Positions 30,369 to 40,639 of a stretch of DNA of 64,000 nucleotides are shown piece after piece. This DNA is from an uncultured Muribaculaceae bacterium. Its GTDB lineage: Bacteria; Bacteroidota; Bacteroidia; Bacteroidales; Muribaculaceae. The notes beneath the pieces were generated by a model. That model made no database searches and was not told the origin of the DNA. It was given only the letters and a program-made list of their open reading frames with translations. The translations under genes were made by a program, and so were the position numbers. Position 1 is the stretch's first letter. Every line of letters begins with the position of its first letter. Where the stretch lies: NCBI GenBank assembly GCA_944321705.1, contig CALUMG010000001.1:124001-188000 (forward strand), written 5' to 3'.

Positions 30369-33248
30369 TTACAGAGTCTTTTTGACTTGTACTTCTTCAT
30401 AAGATTCGATGAAGTCGCCTTCTTTTATGTCGTTGTACCCGGCAATGCTAAGACCGCAATCAAATCCTGATGTAACTTCCTTCACGTCGTCCTTGAAACG
30501 CTTGAGCGAACCGAGGTCGCCGGTATATATTACGATTCCATCGCGGATTACGCGCACCTTGCAGTTGCGTTTGACTTTTCCTTCGCGAACGATTGCGCCT
30601 GCAATGGTTCCCACCTTCGAAATGTGGTAGGTCTGCAATACTTCGGCCGAACCGATGATTTCTTCCTTGATTTCGGGCGACAGCATGCCTTCCATTGCGC
30701 TCTTGACTTCCTCGATTGCTTTGTAGATGACCGAGTATAGTCGGATGTCCACACCATCGTGTTCGGCAAGTCGGCGTGCAGCCTGAGACGGGCGCACTTG
30801 GAAGCCTATGATGAATGCATCGGAAGCTGCAGCCAGTGTCACATCGCTTTCGGATATCGCGCCGACAGCCTTGTGAATTACATTCACTTGGACTTCGGGC
30901 GTAGACAATTTGATGAGTGAGTCGCTCAAAGCTTCGATTGAACCGTCCACGTCTCCCTTGACGATTATGTTAAGCTCGTTGAAGCTGCCGAGAGCTTTGC
31001 GGCGGCTTATGTCCTCGAGAGTTACGCGCTTTTGCGTGCGTAGCCCGAGTTCTCGTTGCAATTGCTCGCGCTTGCTTGCAATTTCGCGCGCTTCTTGGTC
31101 GGAGTCCATCACGTTGAACTTGTCACCGGCAGTCGGAGCACCGTTCAATCCGAGCACGAGAGCCGGCTCCGACGGACCTGCCTCGGTTATGCGCTGGTTG
31201 CGCTCGTTGAACATCGCTTTAATTTTGCCATAGTGAGTTCCGGCAAGCAAGATGTCGCCCACATGTAGCGTTCCGTTTTGAACGAGTACCGTAGCCACAT
31301 ATCCGCGTCCCTTGTCGAGCGAAGATTCTATGATGGAACCTGTTGCACGACGTTTTGGATTGGCTTTTAATTCGAGCATTTCGGCCTCAAGCAATACCTT
31401 GTCGAGCAATTCGGTCACGCCGATGCCTTTTTTTGCCGAGATGTCTTGCGATTGATATTTACCTCCCCAGTCTTCCACGAGGTAGTTCATGTTGGCAAGT
31501 TCTTCCTTAATCTTGTCGGGATTTGCGGTAGGCTTGTCAATCTTGTTTATTGCAAATATGATTGGCACTCCTGCTGCCGAAGCGTGGTTGATGGCTTCAA
31601 CCGTTTGCGGCATGACGTTGTCGTCGGCAGCAACGATAATGATAACGATGTCGGTGACTTTTGCTCCACGCGCACGCATTGCAGTAAATGCTTCGTGGCC
31701 CGGAGTGTCTAGGAATGTTATGTGCTGTCCGTTTTTCAATTTCACGTTGTAGGCACCGATGTGCTGCGTTATGCCACCGGCTTCACCTGCGATGACATTG
31801 GCATTTCGTATGTAGTCGAGCAGAGAAGTCTTACCGTGGTCGACATGTCCCATCACGGTTACTACCGGAGGTCTTGGCACCAAATCTTCTTCATTGTCCT
31901 CTTCTTCATCATGGTGGATGGCTTCAACGACTTCGGCGCTGACAAATTCGGTCTTGAATCCGAATTCATCGGCAACAATGTTGATTGTGTCGGCATCGAG
32001 ACGTTGGTTTATGGAAACCATGACGCCAAGGCTCATGCATGTAGCGATAACCTTGTTGACCGGCACGTTCATCATTATGGCCAGGTCGTTTGCGGTTACG
32101 AATTCTGTGAGCTTGAGTGTCTTTCCTTCTGCTGCTTCGAGTTCTGCTGCTTCACGTTCGCGTTCTTCGACGGCTTCGCGTTTTTCTTTACGCCATTTTG
32201 CCGCTTTCTTGGGGACTTTTGCGGTTAGACGGGCAAGGGTCTCTTTTACTTGCTTTTGAACATCTTCCTCGCTGATTTCGGCCTTGAACGGACGTTTGTT
32301 CTTGTTGCGGTTATTGCGTTGCTTTTTGCCTTGCATGTCGCTGCTTTGAGCTCCGTTGCTTGGCTGGCTTGGTTTTGGCTGCGATGTGATTTGGCTTGCA
32401 CTCTTTTCTATGTCGATTTTTTCTTTCCCGATGCGCTTGCGTTTCTTGCGGTCGCTGTTTTCACCGCCGGCAGTCATTGCGTGGGGAACTTCTTGGCGAG
32501 CTTTTTCTTGTCTCTCCTTACGTTTTTCTTCTTTTGATTTTTTCTTTGGGCGCGTTTGCGGATTTATAGTCGACAAGTCGATTTTTCCGATTACTTTCGG
32601 CTTATTTTTCAAAGTCGGCGTGCCCAATGAGAAGATTTCCGCATCGTTGTCGCGGTTTTGATCTTCAGAATCTTTAATGCCGTTGTCCATAGGAATGGTT
32701 TGTTCTTCGTTTTTCGTTAGTTCAACTTCGGCCTTTTCATCAACCGTTTCGGTTTGGGGCGTTGTTGCTTTTTCAACATCTACTACTTCTTCTATTTCTT
32801 TTTGTACCGGTTGATTTTGTTGCTCGTCGTTTTTCTCAACGGCATCAACATGTTTTGTTGTTTCGGGTTCGGTACCGGTTGTTGTCAGTCCAGGTTTTTT
32901 GCCAGATTTGGCATGTTGCGACAGGTCGATTTTACCCACGATTTTAGGAGCATGGATTGTTTCTACAGTAGTTTTTATTTCTTCGGCCTTGTTCTCGAAT
33001 TTCTTCGGTGGCTTGTTGGTTTGTGCCGGTTTAGCCTTTTCCTGGCGACGCTCGCTGCTGAAGTTGTCCGACTTGATGCGCTGGTCTTTGTCGGTCTTGA
33101 ACTCGTCGAGGAGCATTTTGTATTGCTCGTCGGTTATACGGGCGTTAGGATTAGATTCTACCGTTATGTTCTTTTTGCTGAGGAACTCGATTAATGTCTG
33201 GGTTCCTACATTCAAATCTTTTGCTACTTTGCTAATCTTTACGGGCAT
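30369..33248 (-). CDS. infB: Translation initiation factor IF-2
   Basis: A 959-residue GTPase that brings fMet-tRNA to the 30S subunit. It starts with an IF2_N domain ([20 protein letters not shown]) and a long charged, poorly conserved stretch to about residue 380. A second IF2_N ([20 protein letters not shown]) and the G domain follow: [19 protein letters not shown] at about 462-480, [18 protein letters not shown] and FAINKIDKP. The beta-barrel and C1/C2 domains end it. It is the third gene of rimP-nusA-infB; the 114-bp gap to nusA holds a hairpin that may tune its level. Confidence 0.97.
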
Positions 33249-33314
33249 ATATTAATTTTAACTTGTTTTTGTGGATAAAGTGCTGAAATGTAAACCTGGA
33301 TTCAATATCATAAT

Positions 33315-33352
33315 CGGCAACGGGGCATGCCCGAGGCTTGCACCCGTTACCG
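33315..33352 (-). promoter_or_regulatory. Hairpin between nusA and infB
   Basis: CGGCAACGGG (33315-33324) pairs with CCCGTTACCG (33343-33352) with one wobble, with GGGCATGCCC in the loop. No T-run follows in the minus direction. It could be a processing site or a partial attenuator; a terminator is not supported. Confidence 0.4.
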
Positions 33353-33362
33353 TAGGGCATGG

Positions 33363-34625
33363 TCAATTTTCAAATTCGGCCTTTAACACTTTTATCACGT
33401 TGTCGACGGTATCCTCTTCGAGGTCGGCTTTCTCGATGAGTTCTTCTCGTGGAGTGCTAAGGACGGCTTTTGCAGTAGCGCAACCCATATCTTTCAAGGC
33501 TTCTATCACCCAAGAGTCTATTTCATCTTTGAACTCGTCGAGATAGATATCTTCTTCATTGTCTTCGAGGTCGCGGTATACATCAATTTCATAGCCTGTC
33601 AACATGGTTGCGAGACGTATGTTCAAGCCACCTTTACCGATGGCGAGAGAAACTTCTTCGGGCTTCAAGAATACTTCGGCATGCTTGTTTTCCTCGTCTA
33701 TTCTTATTGACGATATTTTTGCCGGGCTTAATGCGCGCTGGATGAACAATTGAGGATTTGACGTGTAGTTGATTACGTCGATGTTTTCATTGCGCAATTC
33801 CCTGACGATGCCATGGATGCGTGCACCTTTCACTCCGACGCATGCTCCGACCGGGTCGATGCGGTCATCATAGGATTCGACGGCAATCTTTGCGCGTTCT
33901 CCCGGGATGCGTGCCACGGCACGTATGACGATGAGTCCATCGTGTATTTCGGGCACTTCAAGTTCAAACAACCTGCGCAAGAATGTGTCGCTGGTTCTTG
34001 ACACGGTTATCTTTGGGTTGTTGTTCTTGTTGTCAACATTGTATATTACAGCCCTCACGGTATCACCCTTGCGGTAGAAATCGGTAGGGATTTGTTGGTC
34101 TTTCGGCAGAAGCAATTCGTTCTTGTCGTCGTCGAGCAATAGTATTTCCTTTTTCCAAAGTTGATATACTTCTCCGGTGACGAGTTCGCCTTCCATTTCT
34201 TTGAACTTGGAATATATCGCGTCTTTCTGCAAATCAAGAATCTTGCTTGCGAGAGTCTGACGCAGGTTCAAGATAGCACGGCGGCCAAACTTGGCAAAGT
34301 CGATTTTCTTTGTATGTTCTTCACCTATTTCGCAATCAGGGTCAGGGTTGTCGGCATCGTTTCGAGCATCGGTAAGGCTGATTTGCTTTGCAGGATCTTC
34401 CACTTTGCCGTCGGGAACGATTTCGAGATTTTGGTATATTTCACAGTCGCCTTTGTCAGGGTTCATGATTACGTCAAAGTTTTCATCGCTGCCGAACATC
34501 TTTGCGATGACGCTGCGGAATGACTCTTCCAAGACGCTAATCATTGTGGTTTTGTCGATATTCCTCAGTTCTTTGAATTCCGAGAATCGGTCGACCATGT
34601 CGATGGGTTCCTCTTTCTTTGCCAT
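33363..34625 (-). CDS. nusA: Transcription termination/antitermination factor NusA
   Basis: A 420-residue RNA polymerase-binding protein. The N-terminal domain (MVDRFSEFKELRNIDKTTM) is followed by an S1 RNA-binding domain (about 150-215; GELVTGEVYQLWKKEILLL) and two KH domains (about 235-360). SPAKISSIRIDEENKHAEVF and KPEEVSLAIGKGGLNIRLAT lie in the KH region. The acidic repeat region of E. coli NusA is reduced to a short tail, TPREELIEKADLEEDTVD, as is usual in Bacteroidetes. It sits between rimP (nine bases upstream) and infB, and is probably autoregulated through the leader hairpin. Confidence 0.97.
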   Translation of the reverse strand: MAKKEEPIDMVDRFSEFKELRNIDKTTMISVLEESFRSVIAKMFGSDENFDVIMNPDKGDCEIYQNLEIVPDGKVEDPAKQISLTDARNDADNPDPDCEIGEEHTKKIDFAKFGRRAILNLRQTLASKILDLQKDAIYSKFKEMEGELVTGEVYQLWKKEILLLDDDKNELLLPKDQQIPTDFYRKGDTVRAVIYNVDNKNNNPKITVSRTSDTFLRRLFELEVPEIHDGLIVIRAVARIPGERAKIAVESYDDRIDPVGACVGVKGARIHGIVRELRNENIDVINYTSNPQLFIQRALSPAKISSIRIDEENKHAEVFLKPEEVSLAIGKGGLNIRLATMLTGYEIDVYRDLEDNEEDIYLDEFKDEIDSWVIEALKDMGCATAKAVLSTPREELIEKADLEEDTVDNVIKVLKAEFEN

Positions 34626-34634
34626 GTTTGTGCT

Positions 34635-35096
34635 TTAGTCTATAATGTTTTTTGTGTATTTTGTTTCGTTGTAATTTATAACAATGTCTTCTTCCACCAT
34701 TATCGGGCGTTTGGCTCCTTCAGGTTTCACCTTGGTTGTCGTGGTGATTGTGAAAGAATCGTCATTTGCTTCTTTCAAGTCGCCTTTTAATTTGCGTCCG
34801 TCGGTTGTTAGCACTTCCACCGGGTTGCCGACATTCTTGATGTATTGAGCCTTTATCTTGAAAGGAGCGGTCAAGCCTGCCGAGCCTACTTCAAGTTCGT
34901 AATCTTCTATGTCCCGGTCGAAATTGGCTTCTATGGCATTGTTGATTTTCACGCAATCGTCGATGCCGATGCTTGTCATGCTGTCGATTTCAACCACTAT
35001 TCGATTATCGGGTGATATTTCGATGTCCACAAGGAAAATGTCACTTCCTTCTATGGTCTCGTTTACCACTTTCTCCAAGGCTGTCTTGTCTATCAT
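34635..35096 (-). CDS. rimP: Ribosome maturation factor RimP
   Basis: The 153-residue protein assists 30S subunit assembly. The start at 35096 gives MIDKTALEKVVNETIEGSDIF and was selected because the reading frame upstream (to 35234) runs through the promoter and leader and has no RimP-like sequence. Features of the family: LVDIEISPDNRIVVEIDS, DRDIEDYELEVGSAGLTAPF with the central D-Y-x-L-E-V-S-S/G-G-like motif, and a C-terminal beta-barrel. It heads the rimP-nusA-infB operon. Confidence 0.93.
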   Translation of the reverse strand: MIDKTALEKVVNETIEGSDIFLVDIEISPDNRIVVEIDSMTSIGIDDCVKINNAIEANFDRDIEDYELEVGSAGLTAPFKIKAQYIKNVGNPVEVLTTDGRKLKGDLKEANDDSFTITTTTKVKPEGAKRPIMVEEDIVINYNETKYTKNIID

Positions 35097-35156
35097 CTGC
35101 TTGTGTCGGTTTCGTTGTGTTTTTAATGAGTAACGGCGTGATAGTGGCGATATTTG

Positions 35157-35187
35157 TAAAAAAATGAGGGAGCTGCCTGCCCCCTCC
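35157..35187 (-). terminator. Leader terminator-like hairpin upstream of rimP (attenuator candidate)
   Basis: Read on the minus strand, GAGGGGGC (35186-35179) pairs with GCTCCCTC (35173-35166) with one wobble over a 5-base loop, directly followed by ATTTTTTT. That is a canonical intrinsic terminator. It lies between the promoter (-7 at 35219-35212) and the rimP start at 35096, inside the leader of the NusA operon; nothing ends upstream of it on this strand. Confidence 0.75.
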
Positions 35188-35211
35188 ACTAATCCCGCTG
35201 ATTTTCTACTG

Positions 35212-35242
35212 CAAATATACTGTATAAGTGTCACTTTCGCAA
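35212..35242 (-). promoter_or_regulatory. Promoter of rimP-nusA-infB
   Basis: On the minus strand TTG (35242-35240) and TATATTTG (35219-35212) are 20 bp apart, matching the Bacteroidetes form. Transcription would begin near 35205, giving a leader of about 110 bases that contains the terminator-like hairpin. Confidence 0.65.
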
Positions 35243-37533: not shown

Positions 37534-37983
37534 TTATTCGTTATTCATCATGTTGAACATTTCAGATAGTTGCGCGTCGGTCGTCATTTGGTCGCGTGCA
37601 TCACTCATGCTTTGCAACGCATCGTGCATTTGAGCCAAAGCCGTTTCATCATCGGTATATTTGACACCGCCTATGTAAGTTACGCACATGTTGTCGCGGT
37701 TTTTCAATATAGGAATAGATATACCAAGAAGCAATATGGCGACAGCTGCCACGGCTGTCATTCGTGAGATTAGCCGGCGTTTGGCTTTTTGTCGGTACAT
37801 GGCGCGTCCGGCAACGGCAAATCCCATTACGGCTTTTACTTCCTCCCATTCCCGGCCATCGGCTTTGTCCGAAGCAAGGAATTGTCGTAACGCACGTTCT
37901 TCCTCTTCGCTGGCAGCCGCATTGAAATAATCTTCGGCGAGCTTGTGCCAGTATTTCGTATCATAGCCTTCTTGTCGTTTCAT
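37534..37983 (-). CDS. Single-pass anti-sigma factor
   Basis: The 149-residue protein has a cytoplasmic N-terminal helical region (about 1-70, YWHKLAEDYFNAAASEEEER), a membrane segment (about 72-90, MTAVAAVAILLLGISIPIL) and a short periplasmic tail of about 58 residues. The tail is rich in Met (QMHDALQSMSDARDQM, then MFNMMNNE). No zinc motif of ZAS type is visible. Its start overlaps the stop of the sigma gene (ATGA), the standard layout of an ECF sigma/anti-sigma pair. What it senses is unknown. Confidence 0.8.
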   Translation of the reverse strand: MKRQEGYDTKYWHKLAEDYFNAAASEEEERALRQFLASDKADGREWEEVKAVMGFAVAGRAMYRQKAKRRLISRMTAVAAVAILLLGISIPILKNRDNMCVTYIGGVKYTDDETALAQMHDALQSMSDARDQMTTDAQLSEMFNMMNNE

Positions 37984-38480
37984 AATTGCTTATTGTAAAA
38001 TTCTCTTATTGATTTTCTTGCTCTTGACAGTTGCATTCTCACGGCAGGTTCCTGCATGTTGAGTTCCTTTGCTATTTGTGAGAAACTGTATCCTTTGAAT
38101 TCCTTCATCATGAATATTTCGCGCTGATTGTCGGTGAGCTGTGCCATGATGATGCGTTCAATGGCTTTGAATCGTTCTTCTTGATTTTCATCGCCGCCAT
38201 CAATTTCCTCGGTGGTAATATCGATGTCGGGATTTAATGAAACCATCGGTAATGTATTGCGTCGCCGGTAGGCATCAATCCCCATGTTTCTGACGGTTGT
38301 TTTCATTAAAGCCTCTGCCTCCGAAGTCGAGTCGATGCTGTCCCGGCGAGTCCACAATCGGCAAAAAGCCTCTTGCAGGGCATCGTCGGCATCCTCTTCC
38401 CTTGGAAAGAAACGAGTTGCGAATCGAAGAGTCTTCTTTCGCAATTCGACGAAAACGGATGTCAGAGCTTTTTCGTTCAT
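37980..38480 (-). CDS. ECF RNA polymerase sigma factor
   Basis: The 166-residue sigma factor has region 2 (about 15-80, with FATRFFPREEDADDALQEAFCR as two pieces) and region 4 (about 110-160, MAQLTDNQREIFMMKEFKG, FSQIAKELNMQEPAVRMQLS). It directs polymerase to an alternative promoter set. The start at 38480 (MNEKALTSVFVEL) was preferred to the longer frame reaching 38534, whose extra 18 residues look unrelated. It leads a four-gene operon with an anti-sigma factor, a small exported protein and a barrel, so an envelope-stress response is likely. Confidence 0.93.
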   Translation of the reverse strand: MNEKALTSVFVELRKKTLRFATRFFPREEDADDALQEAFCRLWTRRDSIDSTSEAEALMKTTVRNMGIDAYRRRNTLPMVSLNPDIDITTEEIDGGDENQEERFKAIERIIMAQLTDNQREIFMMKEFKGYSFSQIAKELNMQEPAVRMQLSRARKSIREFYNKQL

Positions 38481-38577
38481 TTGTAAATTTATCGTTACAA
38501 CAAAGAAAACGCGGCAAGCAGGATTTTGTAACATGTCAGGGCAAAAAAATTTTTATGTTTAGGCTGAATATGGAAAA

Positions 38578-38598
38578 TCCCTCCCGGATGAGGAGGGA
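38578..38598 (-). terminator. Terminator after the capsid-like gene
   Basis: TCCCTCC (38578-38584) pairs with GGAGGGA (38592-38598); on the minus strand TTTTCC follows. It closes the two-gene capsid-like unit, 21 bp after its stop, and separates it from the sigma operon. Confidence 0.7.
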
Positions 38599-38618: not shown

Positions 38619-40058
38619 TTATTCTGCCACGATGCGCATGTGGGCTTTAGGATAGCGCAAAACGAGACAACTGGCTTCGGTGAGCACGAGCGCGTCGGTG
38701 TTGCGCAAACCTGCCGTTTTAAGGTCAAGGGCTTCGGTTCCGAATGGCAGGTGGTTGTACTTTTGCAAGTATGCAGGGTCTATTATCATGCCGTCGTCGG
38801 GCATGCCGCAATCGTCAAATACCTCGGAGAGAAGAACATACAAACGACCGAATTTAGAATTTATTTCGCTGAAGTCGATTCCCCATTTGGTTACAGTTTC
38901 TCGGGCATTTACAACTTTTGTGTAATCTATTTTGTTGATGGCTTCTATAAGACCAGAGCCACCTATAAGCACTTTTCGTTTCGACCCGGCATTTCCTGTG
39001 AATGCTTCGCGCATCATCTCGATTAATGTGTCTTGGTTGAGCGAAGATTTGTCATAGGAAAATTCTTTTCCGGCTTGGAACCAAATTCCACCGGTAAACA
39101 TGACGGTTTCTTTCTTGCGATAGTCATATAAGCTTCGTTTGACACCGAAAAGAAAATTCTTTTCCATTCCGAGCCTCATGTCGTAGATTGCCGCCTCTTC
39201 TTGGTCGGAAAGATTCCAATTAACTTCCTTGTCGGCTATTTTCTGCAACGTACTTTGCTCGATTTGCATTTTGAAAATCTGGCAATAGTTTTGGGCTTTT
39301 TGCGGAAGCGATTCAAATTGTGCCGTTTGCACGTCAAGTTCGGATGCCGCTCGTCCCATTCGTATTAACGTAGTGAGCGACGGGATGGAAGGAACACAAT
39401 TTTCTACTGAACCTATTTTTGCTCCGTTTACGGCCATTACTGTCAATCCAGTGTCGTCTTTTGCCACGACATATAGTACAAGGCTTCCTGATGAGGCGGT
39501 GACTCCGTCGGCTTCAAAGCCGTTTATTGATTTGATCAAGATAGTGTCGGAAACAGCAAATATATCGTCGTTGCTGGTTTTCAACAATGCTTTTTGCGCA
39601 GCCGATGTCACCGAACTTGAACTTGGTGCAGTGTATTCGGCAGTCATGATTGCCGTAGTCGGCTTTGTGTCGACGGTGTAATAATCTACAACCATGCTTC
39701 CTGCGCGTTTGGCTCCTGCACACCTCGACAATTGGTCGACAGGCGTGGCCATGGGACGTATTTTCACGATTCGCTTGTCTATCTCGTTGAGGAGGAAGTC
39801 GCTTGAAGAGTTCTTGACTGTCTCGGTAGTCAAAGGCCCGTCCACTACATGTTGTCCGCCTTCGGTTCCTGCTATTATCGTGGCAAAGGCCATTGTCACT
39901 CCACTGTCGTCGTTGCATCCCGATAATAGCATTACGATTGCAGCGACTATTAAGACAATCAACATGATTAAGCCGCTATTTTCCTTTATGATGTTGCCGA
40001 TTTGCTTCATCGATGAGATCGTTTTAGTGGCTTTCGAGCATTTTAGAGTTTTTTTCAT
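38619..40058 (-). CDS. Phage major-capsid-like protein with membrane/lipoprotein N-terminus
   Basis: The 479-residue protein has, from about residue 56, features of SU10/DUF5309-type major capsid proteins. They are MAFATIIAGTEGGQHVVDG, LLNEIDKRIVKIRPMATPVD, GSMVVDYYTVDTKP, and close to the end ALVLTEASCLVLRYPKAHMR. Before this comes a Lys-rich start, a strongly hydrophobic stretch (about 29-45, SGLIMLIVLIVAAIVMLL) and a lipobox-like LLSGC. An internal ATG at 39893 with GGAG six bases upstream could start the capsid part alone. It is preceded by a small acidic gene where phages carry the scaffold. No other phage gene is near, so a domesticated or membrane-tethered capsid is possible; a prophage remnant is the alternative. 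Confidence 0.65.
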   Translation of the reverse strand: MKKTLKCSKATKTISSMKQIGNIIKENSGLIMLIVLIVAAIVMLLSGCNDDSGVTMAFATIIAGTEGGQHVVDGPLTTETVKNSSSDFLLNEIDKRIVKIRPMATPVDQLSRCAGAKRAGSMVVDYYTVDTKPTTAIMTAEYTAPSSSSVTSAAQKALLKTSNDDIFAVSDTILIKSINGFEADGVTASSGSLVLYVVAKDDTGLTVMAVNGAKIGSVENCVPSIPSLTTLIRMGRAASELDVQTAQFESLPQKAQNYCQIFKMQIEQSTLQKIADKEVNWNLSDQEEAAIYDMRLGMEKNFLFGVKRSLYDYRKKETVMFTGGIWFQAGKEFSYDKSSLNQDTLIEMMREAFTGNAGSKRKVLIGGSGLIEAINKIDYTKVVNARETVTKWGIDFSEINSKFGRLYVLLSEVFDDCGMPDDGMIIDPAYLQKYNHLPFGTEALDLKTAGLRNTDALVLTEASCLVLRYPKAHMRIVAE

Positions 40059-40128
40059 GATGTAGTTAATTTGAGGTTATAATTTATTACTTGAATTTCA
40101 TGAGGGAGGGTAGTACATAGACTAAAGT

Positions 40129-40608
40129 TTATGTGTTGTCGACATGAGCCTTGAACATGCGTCGGTGACGTTTCAGGTCGATTGCTTCATTGCGACCGCG
40201 TATGTAACCATCGCTTTCGGCCTCTTTCACATGCTTGTCGTGGTTAACGGCTTTGAGCAGGATTTCCACGGCATTGTCGCTCCAGTCCCCCGACATGACC
40301 GAAAGGCCGGCTTTGCCTACGGCTGTAGCAGTTTCAGCGTCCATTCCGAATTTATCGGCAATTGAAGCCGGCATTTCGGCCGGTTCCTGTGGGAAATTAC
40401 GTTTAGCCGATAACTCAGCGTTTTGTCCCGACAAAAGGTCGGCTATGAACCGGCATAATCGAGGGTCGGCAAGAGCGATTGATATAAGTGGATTTTTCAT
40501 CCATTCGGCAAATTGTGTTGCAATGTTGTTGTGCTCAGGTTTCTCGTGGTTGTAGTCGCAGAGAGATTCCTGTTGTGTTACTGTTGTGTCTTGTTGGTCA
40601 TTTTCCAT
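40129..40608 (-). CDS. Small acidic protein, scaffold-like, upstream of capsid-like gene
   Basis: The 159-residue protein has no signal peptide. The N-terminal Gln/Asp/Glu-rich part (MENDQQDTTVTQQESLCDY) leads into helical segments: LADPRLCRFIADLLSGQNAE, FGMDAETATAVGKAG, and ESDGYIRGRNEAIDLKRHR near the end. This resembles small phage proteins encoded just before the capsid gene, which act in shell assembly, but similarity is by composition and position only. The capsid-like gene follows after a 70-bp gap. A TATCTTTG box upstream suggests it is transcribed from a host-type promoter. Confidence 0.6.
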   Translation of the reverse strand: MENDQQDTTVTQQESLCDYNHEKPEHNNIATQFAEWMKNPLISIALADPRLCRFIADLLSGQNAELSAKRNFPQEPAEMPASIADKFGMDAETATAVGKAGLSVMSGDWSDNAVEILLKAVNHDKHVKEAESDGYIRGRNEAIDLKRHRRMFKAHVDNT

Positions 40609-40631: not shown

Positions 40632-40639
40632 CAAAGATA
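40632..40639 (-). promoter_or_regulatory. -7 element of the scaffold/capsid-like pair
   Basis: On the minus strand TATCTTTG (40639-40632) fits the Bacteroidetes -7 consensus, 24 bp before ATG 40608. No TTTG is seen at the ideal 20-bp distance; CTTTTGATGA lies about 27 bp upstream. Confidence 0.45.

Follow-up and report, generated by a model that had tools for sequence, protein, structure and literature searches.

Muribaculaceae are a dominant family of the mammalian gut, and the genome studied here carries a phage-type major capsid protein (MCP) gene, preceded by a small partner gene, among host genes. What is such a pair doing there? A first-pass annotation of the window (the whole 64-kb stretch of DNA analysed) had taken the MCP gene for an orphan, most simply a leftover of a decayed prophage and possibly an encapsulin-like compartment or surface lattice.

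The capsid gene and its upstream partner

Both reading frames of the pair are present where they had been annotated, on the minus strand (Table 1). As had been proposed, the longer one encodes a member of the SU10-type HK97-fold MCPs (PF17236) by both profile and fold. Residues 83-476 match Pfam PF17236 SU10_MCP with E=3.4e-52 and 178 bits against a curated cut-off of 24.1, and PHROG 26635 matches with E=2.9e-98, while a search of NCBIfam gave no useful match. The AlphaFold2 model (69 sequences; mean pLDDT 80.5) best matches, by Foldseek and VIA-align, the structures of phage VP1 (Foldseek E=1e-19; Z 19.3), crAss001, SU10, HK97 and encapsulins.

The 159-aa partner has a weak match to PHROG 22323 (1.2e-5). 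By BLAST it falls into one family with gp10, the scaffold-position gene of phage BS-TP4, with homology over the C-terminal part, which upholds the earlier view of it as a scaffold-position gene. In most loci compared (71) it immediately precedes the MCP on the same strand, and this gene position points to a scaffold role. Both genes are present in a single copy in their own genome.

The flanking signals of the first-pass annotation hold in part. A -7-like element, TATCTTTG, precedes the pair, but the pattern search found no TTTG element 19-22 nt before it; a weak hairpin with a T-run follows the MCP gene, but the hairpin count of the region around it is no better than in shuffled sequences.

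At window positions 37534-38534, just downstream of the MCP gene and on the same strand, lie a Pfam ECF sigma factor gene and, after it, a 149-aa gene, possibly the partner of the sigma factor. The sigma gene does not recur beside the MCP in the other loci compared.

Table 1. Features of the window and particle genes at other loci of the same genome (window positions unless a contig is named)
Feature	Location	Strand	Basis
SU10-type HK97-fold MCP gene, 479 aa	38619..40058	-	Pfam, AF2 model, PDB matches
Hydrophobic segment, MCP residues 29-48, ending LSGC (39915-39926)	39915..39974	-	Sequence
Internal ATG (Met56), putative second start	39891..39893	-	Sequence
159-aa scaffold-position gene, shortened homologue of phage gp10	40129..40608	-	Position and homology
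Possible Bacteroidetes -7 element TATCTTTG	40632..40639	-	Sequence, 24 nt before scaffold start
Weak terminator-like hairpin with T-run after MCP	38579..38594	-	Hairpin search
Host infB-nusA-rimP block	30369..35234	-	IF-2 and NusA by Pfam, rimP by similarity to the gene following nusA in G224; syntenic anchor shared with G224
Scaffold and MCP	Contig C1 (window)		
Portal	C25:20090-21457		
Terminase large subunit	C3:46601-48424		
Nozzle-like gene, homologue of phage gp26	C3:50838-53309		
Adaptor	C3:82461-82988		
gp9 family gene	C12:5391-5789		

Particle genes at other loci of the genome

No portal, terminase, adaptor or nozzle-like homologue was found within the 64-kb window, in agreement with the first-pass annotation. 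The MCP gene is nevertheless not an orphan, since profile searches outside the window located portal, terminase, adaptor and nozzle-like genes at other loci of the same genome. Together with the window pair, the particle genes are spread over contigs C1, C3 (two places), C12 and C25.

In a comparison of 40 loci, the scaffold-MCP pair is followed in many genera by a gene of ~180 aa and then by one of ~460 aa. The latter encodes a P22-type portal (PF16510, 5e-11; PHROG portal, 3e-25), and the former, in the adaptor position, is homologous to phage gp13. The terminase family matches T4 gp17, and its Walker A and acidic nuclease motifs are intact. The nozzle-like protein (~825 aa) is homologous to the structural phage protein gp26 (~900 aa) and is so named only for its size and phage context. 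The gp9 family yields a confident, all-helical model (pLDDT 94), which gave no informative match when tested by structure as a small terminase; that function is guessed at from where the gene lies. The adaptor, nozzle-like and gp9 profiles were also run against the PDB, with no usable result.

The window and the other particle loci lie among host genes, not in a prophage. On C3, a pyrE-like phosphoribosyltransferase gene and one other gene separate the terminase from the nozzle-like gene, and Pfam identifies tyrS, LD-carboxypeptidase, ribD, short-chain dehydrogenase, glycosyl hydrolase, radical SAM, flavin reductase and beta-eliminating lyase genes near the loci outside the window. None of the flanking genes tested by Pfam is an integrase or phage replication gene. 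The portal of this genome has an in-frame TAG at codon 426, near the C-terminus; the frame still resembles its relatives past this codon, so the protein is probably shortened in this strain.

Occurrence, selection and inheritance in Muribaculaceae

Profile searches of 198 Muribaculaceae genomes detected the MCP (PF17236) in 175, of which 173 pass the curated cut-off; 29 of 30 genera are represented, and most genomes have a single match. Portal and terminase large subunit genes occur in 186 and 181 genomes, tallies that include a few true prophages, while the nozzle-like, adaptor and gp9 families were found in 177, 174 and 170, respectively. The particle genes are mostly single-copy across these genomes; a few additional copies of portal and terminase, such as those on contig C56 of genome G044, are full-length and belong to prophages. 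Among the 141 high-quality genomes (at least 90% complete and at most 5% contaminated), the MCP is present in 128, portal in 135, terminase in 134, nozzle-like in 133, adaptor in 127 and gp9 family in 123. Losses of one or all loci occur in some lineages, among them much of genus g26 and single genomes such as G005, G104 and G038.

The genes are also widely separated in genomes where distances can be read directly. In the single-contig genome G172 the MCP lies at 1.89, the adaptor at 1.54, the portal at 1.36 and the terminase at 0.94 Mb, with 0.35-1 Mb between particle loci. With loci hundreds of kilobases apart, a particle could not package the complete set of genes that encodes it.

Purifying selection acts on the capsid, portal and terminase genes, with median dN/dS values of 0.094 for the MCP (103 pairs), 0.114 for the portal (34 pairs) and 0.091 for the terminase (7 pairs), in line with the retention by selection that the first-pass annotation had raised. 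Protein distances are correlated between MCP and portal, which are linked in many genera (r 0.90, 22 genomes), between portal and terminase (r 0.81, 18 genomes) and between MCP and terminase (r 0.71, 17 genomes), and none of 5000 permutations reached the observed value in any of the three comparisons. The nearest neighbour belongs to the same genus for 46 of 53 MCPs, 22 of 23 portals and 21 of 23 terminases. Genus labels and mutual distance correlation together suggest congruence with the species tree. Portals of the family loci measure 425-532 aa, two contig-cut fragments aside, in comparison with 624-675 aa in phages.

Two kinds of neighbouring genes recur in parts of the family. Peptidase M15 endolysin-like genes adjoin the MCP or portal in some genera (L098:8991-9413, L114:10931-11362, L199:11362-11808 and relatives) and are possible lysis genes of the particle. 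About 11 related loci (L141, L155, L157 and relatives) have a histidine-kinase/LytTR-regulator-like pair on the opposite strand, upstream of the MCP, a recurrence that may reflect no more than shared chromosomal context.

Sister families and related phages

In an order-wide sample, 23 of 295 genomes have the MCP, concentrated in a few families in which most or all sampled members are positive. In the MCP-bearing sister-family genomes tested, portal and terminase are likewise present, and the portal frames span 620-720 aa. In three of them (G453, G224 and G284), the particle loci occupy about 40-50 kb and are interspersed with host genes, including tRNA synthetase, infB and nusA. The one-contig genome G486 has its portal at 1.15 Mb, its MCP at 1.40 Mb and its terminase at 1.43 Mb. 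The sister families additionally carry gp12-like, fibre-like and internal-virion-like genes that were not found in the Muribaculaceae loci. A profile of two sister-family internal-virion sequences has matches in 2 of 19 Muribaculaceae genomes: the one in G042 is weak, and the one in G044 lies inside a ~6000-aa frame that looks like a prophage gene. The infB-nusA-rimP block of the window, nadK and exbB/exbD recur beside particle genes in G224, and this shared neighbourhood argues for one old insertion there, probably followed by dispersal and reduction of the particle genes.

Among the free phages in the collection searched, the nearest relatives are BS-TP4, BKO1-TP3 and BF1-TP2 (PQ571277, PQ571269 and PQ571263), all temperate phages of Bacteroides, and it was their annotated genomes that led to the terminase (gp7) and gp26 homologues. 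Their scaffold, MCP (~40% identity), adaptor, portal, terminase, gp26-like and gp9 genes are homologous to the host genes. The phage genomes are contiguous, 64-68 kb long, and include integrase, replication, giant virion protein and rhomboid genes, whereas the host genes are scattered, with a portal ~180 aa shorter and a shortened scaffold. Five IMG/VR loci filed as viral (L206-L210) encode MCPs 48-59% identical to the window protein and have no rhomboid gene; these are probably bacterial particle loci mis-called viral.

Hydrophobic N-terminus of the capsid protein

The N-terminal features listed in the first-pass annotation are all present in the sequence: a Lys-rich segment is followed by hydrophobic residues 29-45 and LSGC at 45-48, and GGAG sits 5 nt before the internal ATG at codon 56, where Met is kept in seven of the eight capsid genes compared within the genus. 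As the first-pass annotation proposed, this putative second start might yield a free product beside the tethered one. We compared 188 unique MCPs, 129 from host loci and 59 from phages. A strongly hydrophobic N-terminal stretch is found in 96 of the host-locus and 55 of the phage proteins, and several host genera lack it, their MCPs beginning at the conserved body. A membrane or lipoprotein N-terminus as a mark of domestication is therefore rejected in part, since free phages share the hydrophobic segment, which is probably a trait taken over from the phage ancestor. The lipobox-like ending alone, a putative lipobox seen as LSGC in the window MCP, is host-specific: it occurs in 49 of the 96 host proteins with a hydrophobic stretch and in none of the 55 from phages.

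In the phage MCPs, a small-residue motif (GASSGVMMA-like) often precedes A-x-A, and a rhomboid-family gene lies ~1.1-1.9 kb upstream of the MCP on the opposite strand in 69 phage loci from IMG/VR (among L211-L285), with further examples at L072:22426-22944 and L074:24634-25101. This suggests that the phage MCP is a membrane-anchored precursor freed by the phage rhomboid; in the host loci that we examined, no rhomboid-family gene was found near the MCP. At some point the MCP precursor is probably anchored to the inner membrane by its hydrophobic N-terminus. The charges flanking the segment suggest an N-in/C-out topology, which is hard to square with DNA packaging in the cytoplasm.

Interpretation and alternative explanations

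We consider it probable that the window pair forms the head locus of a dispersed gene transfer agent (GTA)-like system that is ancient, inherited vertically and related to BS-TP4-type phages. This reading is the most economical because the dispersed genes exclude self-packaging, yet the packaging genes are under selection. The host genome contains head, packaging and tail genes of phage origin, and genus labels, correlated distances and synteny point to their vertical descent. The stop codon in the portal of this genome and the lineages with lost loci count against this reading. In such a system, the MCP would assemble around the portal into a prohead, with the small upstream protein as scaffold, the terminase large subunit would package cellular DNA, perhaps helped by the gp9-family protein, the adaptor and nozzle-like protein would close the head with a short tail, and host lysis would set the particle free. 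We infer that particles form, that they deliver DNA and that this DNA is the host's rather than their own, because no particle could hold loci so far apart. Delivery in Muribaculaceae is uncertain since fibre-like and internal-virion proteins are known only from the sister families. A version in which this Bacteroidota GTA belongs to the core genome of Muribaculaceae and sister families, with single-gene loci and a membrane- or lipid-anchored capsid precursor whose heads assemble on the inner membrane, is possible but doubtful; it adds that the rhomboid intramembrane protease encoded nearby in the related phages could free the precursor.

The main rival is a PBSX-like particle, filled with host DNA, that either works as a toxin against relatives or delivers no DNA, because no fibres or internal ejection proteins are recognised in Muribaculaceae. 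PBSX of Bacillus subtilis, a defective phage-like element packaging evenly dispersed host DNA fragments, is itself a precedent (PMC12946183). We regard this explanation as unlikely: no contractile tail gene was found in the Muribaculaceae set, and the nozzle-like and adaptor genes imply a short tail. PBSX itself differs in that its genes lie in one prophage-like region and its particles act as tailocins. A domesticated compartment or membrane-tethered shell made of MCP and scaffold alone would fit the fold match to encapsulins, which are likewise chromosome-encoded HK97-fold shell proteins, and the hydrophobic N-terminus with its lipobox-like end in half of the host MCPs that have it. Encapsulins, though, have no portal or terminase partners, and they share the fold alone with the window MCP, which in sequence matches phage MCPs. 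The genomes that have the MCP have also kept portal and terminase, whose divergence parallels that of the MCP, no cargo-like neighbour is conserved beside the MCP in the loci compared, and free phages have the hydrophobic N-terminus too. We thus reject an encapsulin or surface lattice as the main reading and hold a shell of this kind to be quite improbable.

The genes are phage-derived, scattered and reduced, with portal and scaffold shortened and a stop codon in the portal of this genome, as expected of fossils of one or several prophages that happen to remain. Against this origin of the capsid gene, which the first-pass annotation had thought the simpler, stand dN/dS values of ~0.1, its presence in about nine tenths of the family and a neighbourhood conserved across families; we reject it on selection and prevalence, and little credence is left for it. 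Least probable of all is a satellite-like set of parts that depends on a helper, either a prophage or a phage from the same lineage. Close intact phages do infect related hosts, and full-length prophage portal and terminase pairs exist in some family genomes, such as that of G044 mentioned above, but no satellite-type island, integrase or replication gene was found at the sampled loci, and the genes track the host genus.

Comparison with known systems

Podovirus-like GTA-like systems exist in gut bacteria. FpGTA of Faecalibacterium is near-ubiquitous in its genus, with particle production shown, and its genes form operons of 10.5 and 5.5 kb in a Gram-positive host (PMC12946183). Compared by description, FpGTA and the putative Bacteroidota system have in common a GTA-like nature, near-ubiquity, parts at separate loci and gut bacteria as hosts; the latter differs in the dispersal of its single genes and in its presence in several families of Bacteroidota. 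Alphaproteobacterial GTAs (RcGTA, Caulobacter and Bartonella) consist of host-kept phage-derived genes at more than one locus, without replication genes (PMC12946183; for RcGTA packaging, PMC7947584). The Bacteroidota set resembles them in its host-kept phage-derived genes and multiple loci, and differs from RcGTA in its SU10-type capsid and P22-type portal. Most structural genes of RcGTA are in one cluster, whereas the Bacteroidota genes lie singly.

Significance

Our literature search turned up no GTA of Bacteroidota, and searches combining rhomboid with phage capsid and Bacteroides, and GTA with Barnesiella or Bacteroidales, returned no report of this system. PMC12946183 describes lateral transduction rather than GTAs in Bacteroides, and Muribaculaceae are not named in its text. 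An inherited gene-transfer particle in these bacteria thus seems not to have been described previously. Free phages, sister families with a fuller set of loosely grouped or dispersed genes, and Muribaculaceae with a reduced set form a graded series of phage domestication, on which one can test directly how a virus turns into a particle owned by its host; Barnesiella (loci L188 and L196) offers cultured relatives. If functional, the system would let members of a major gut phylum exchange genes by an inherited route that several families have kept.
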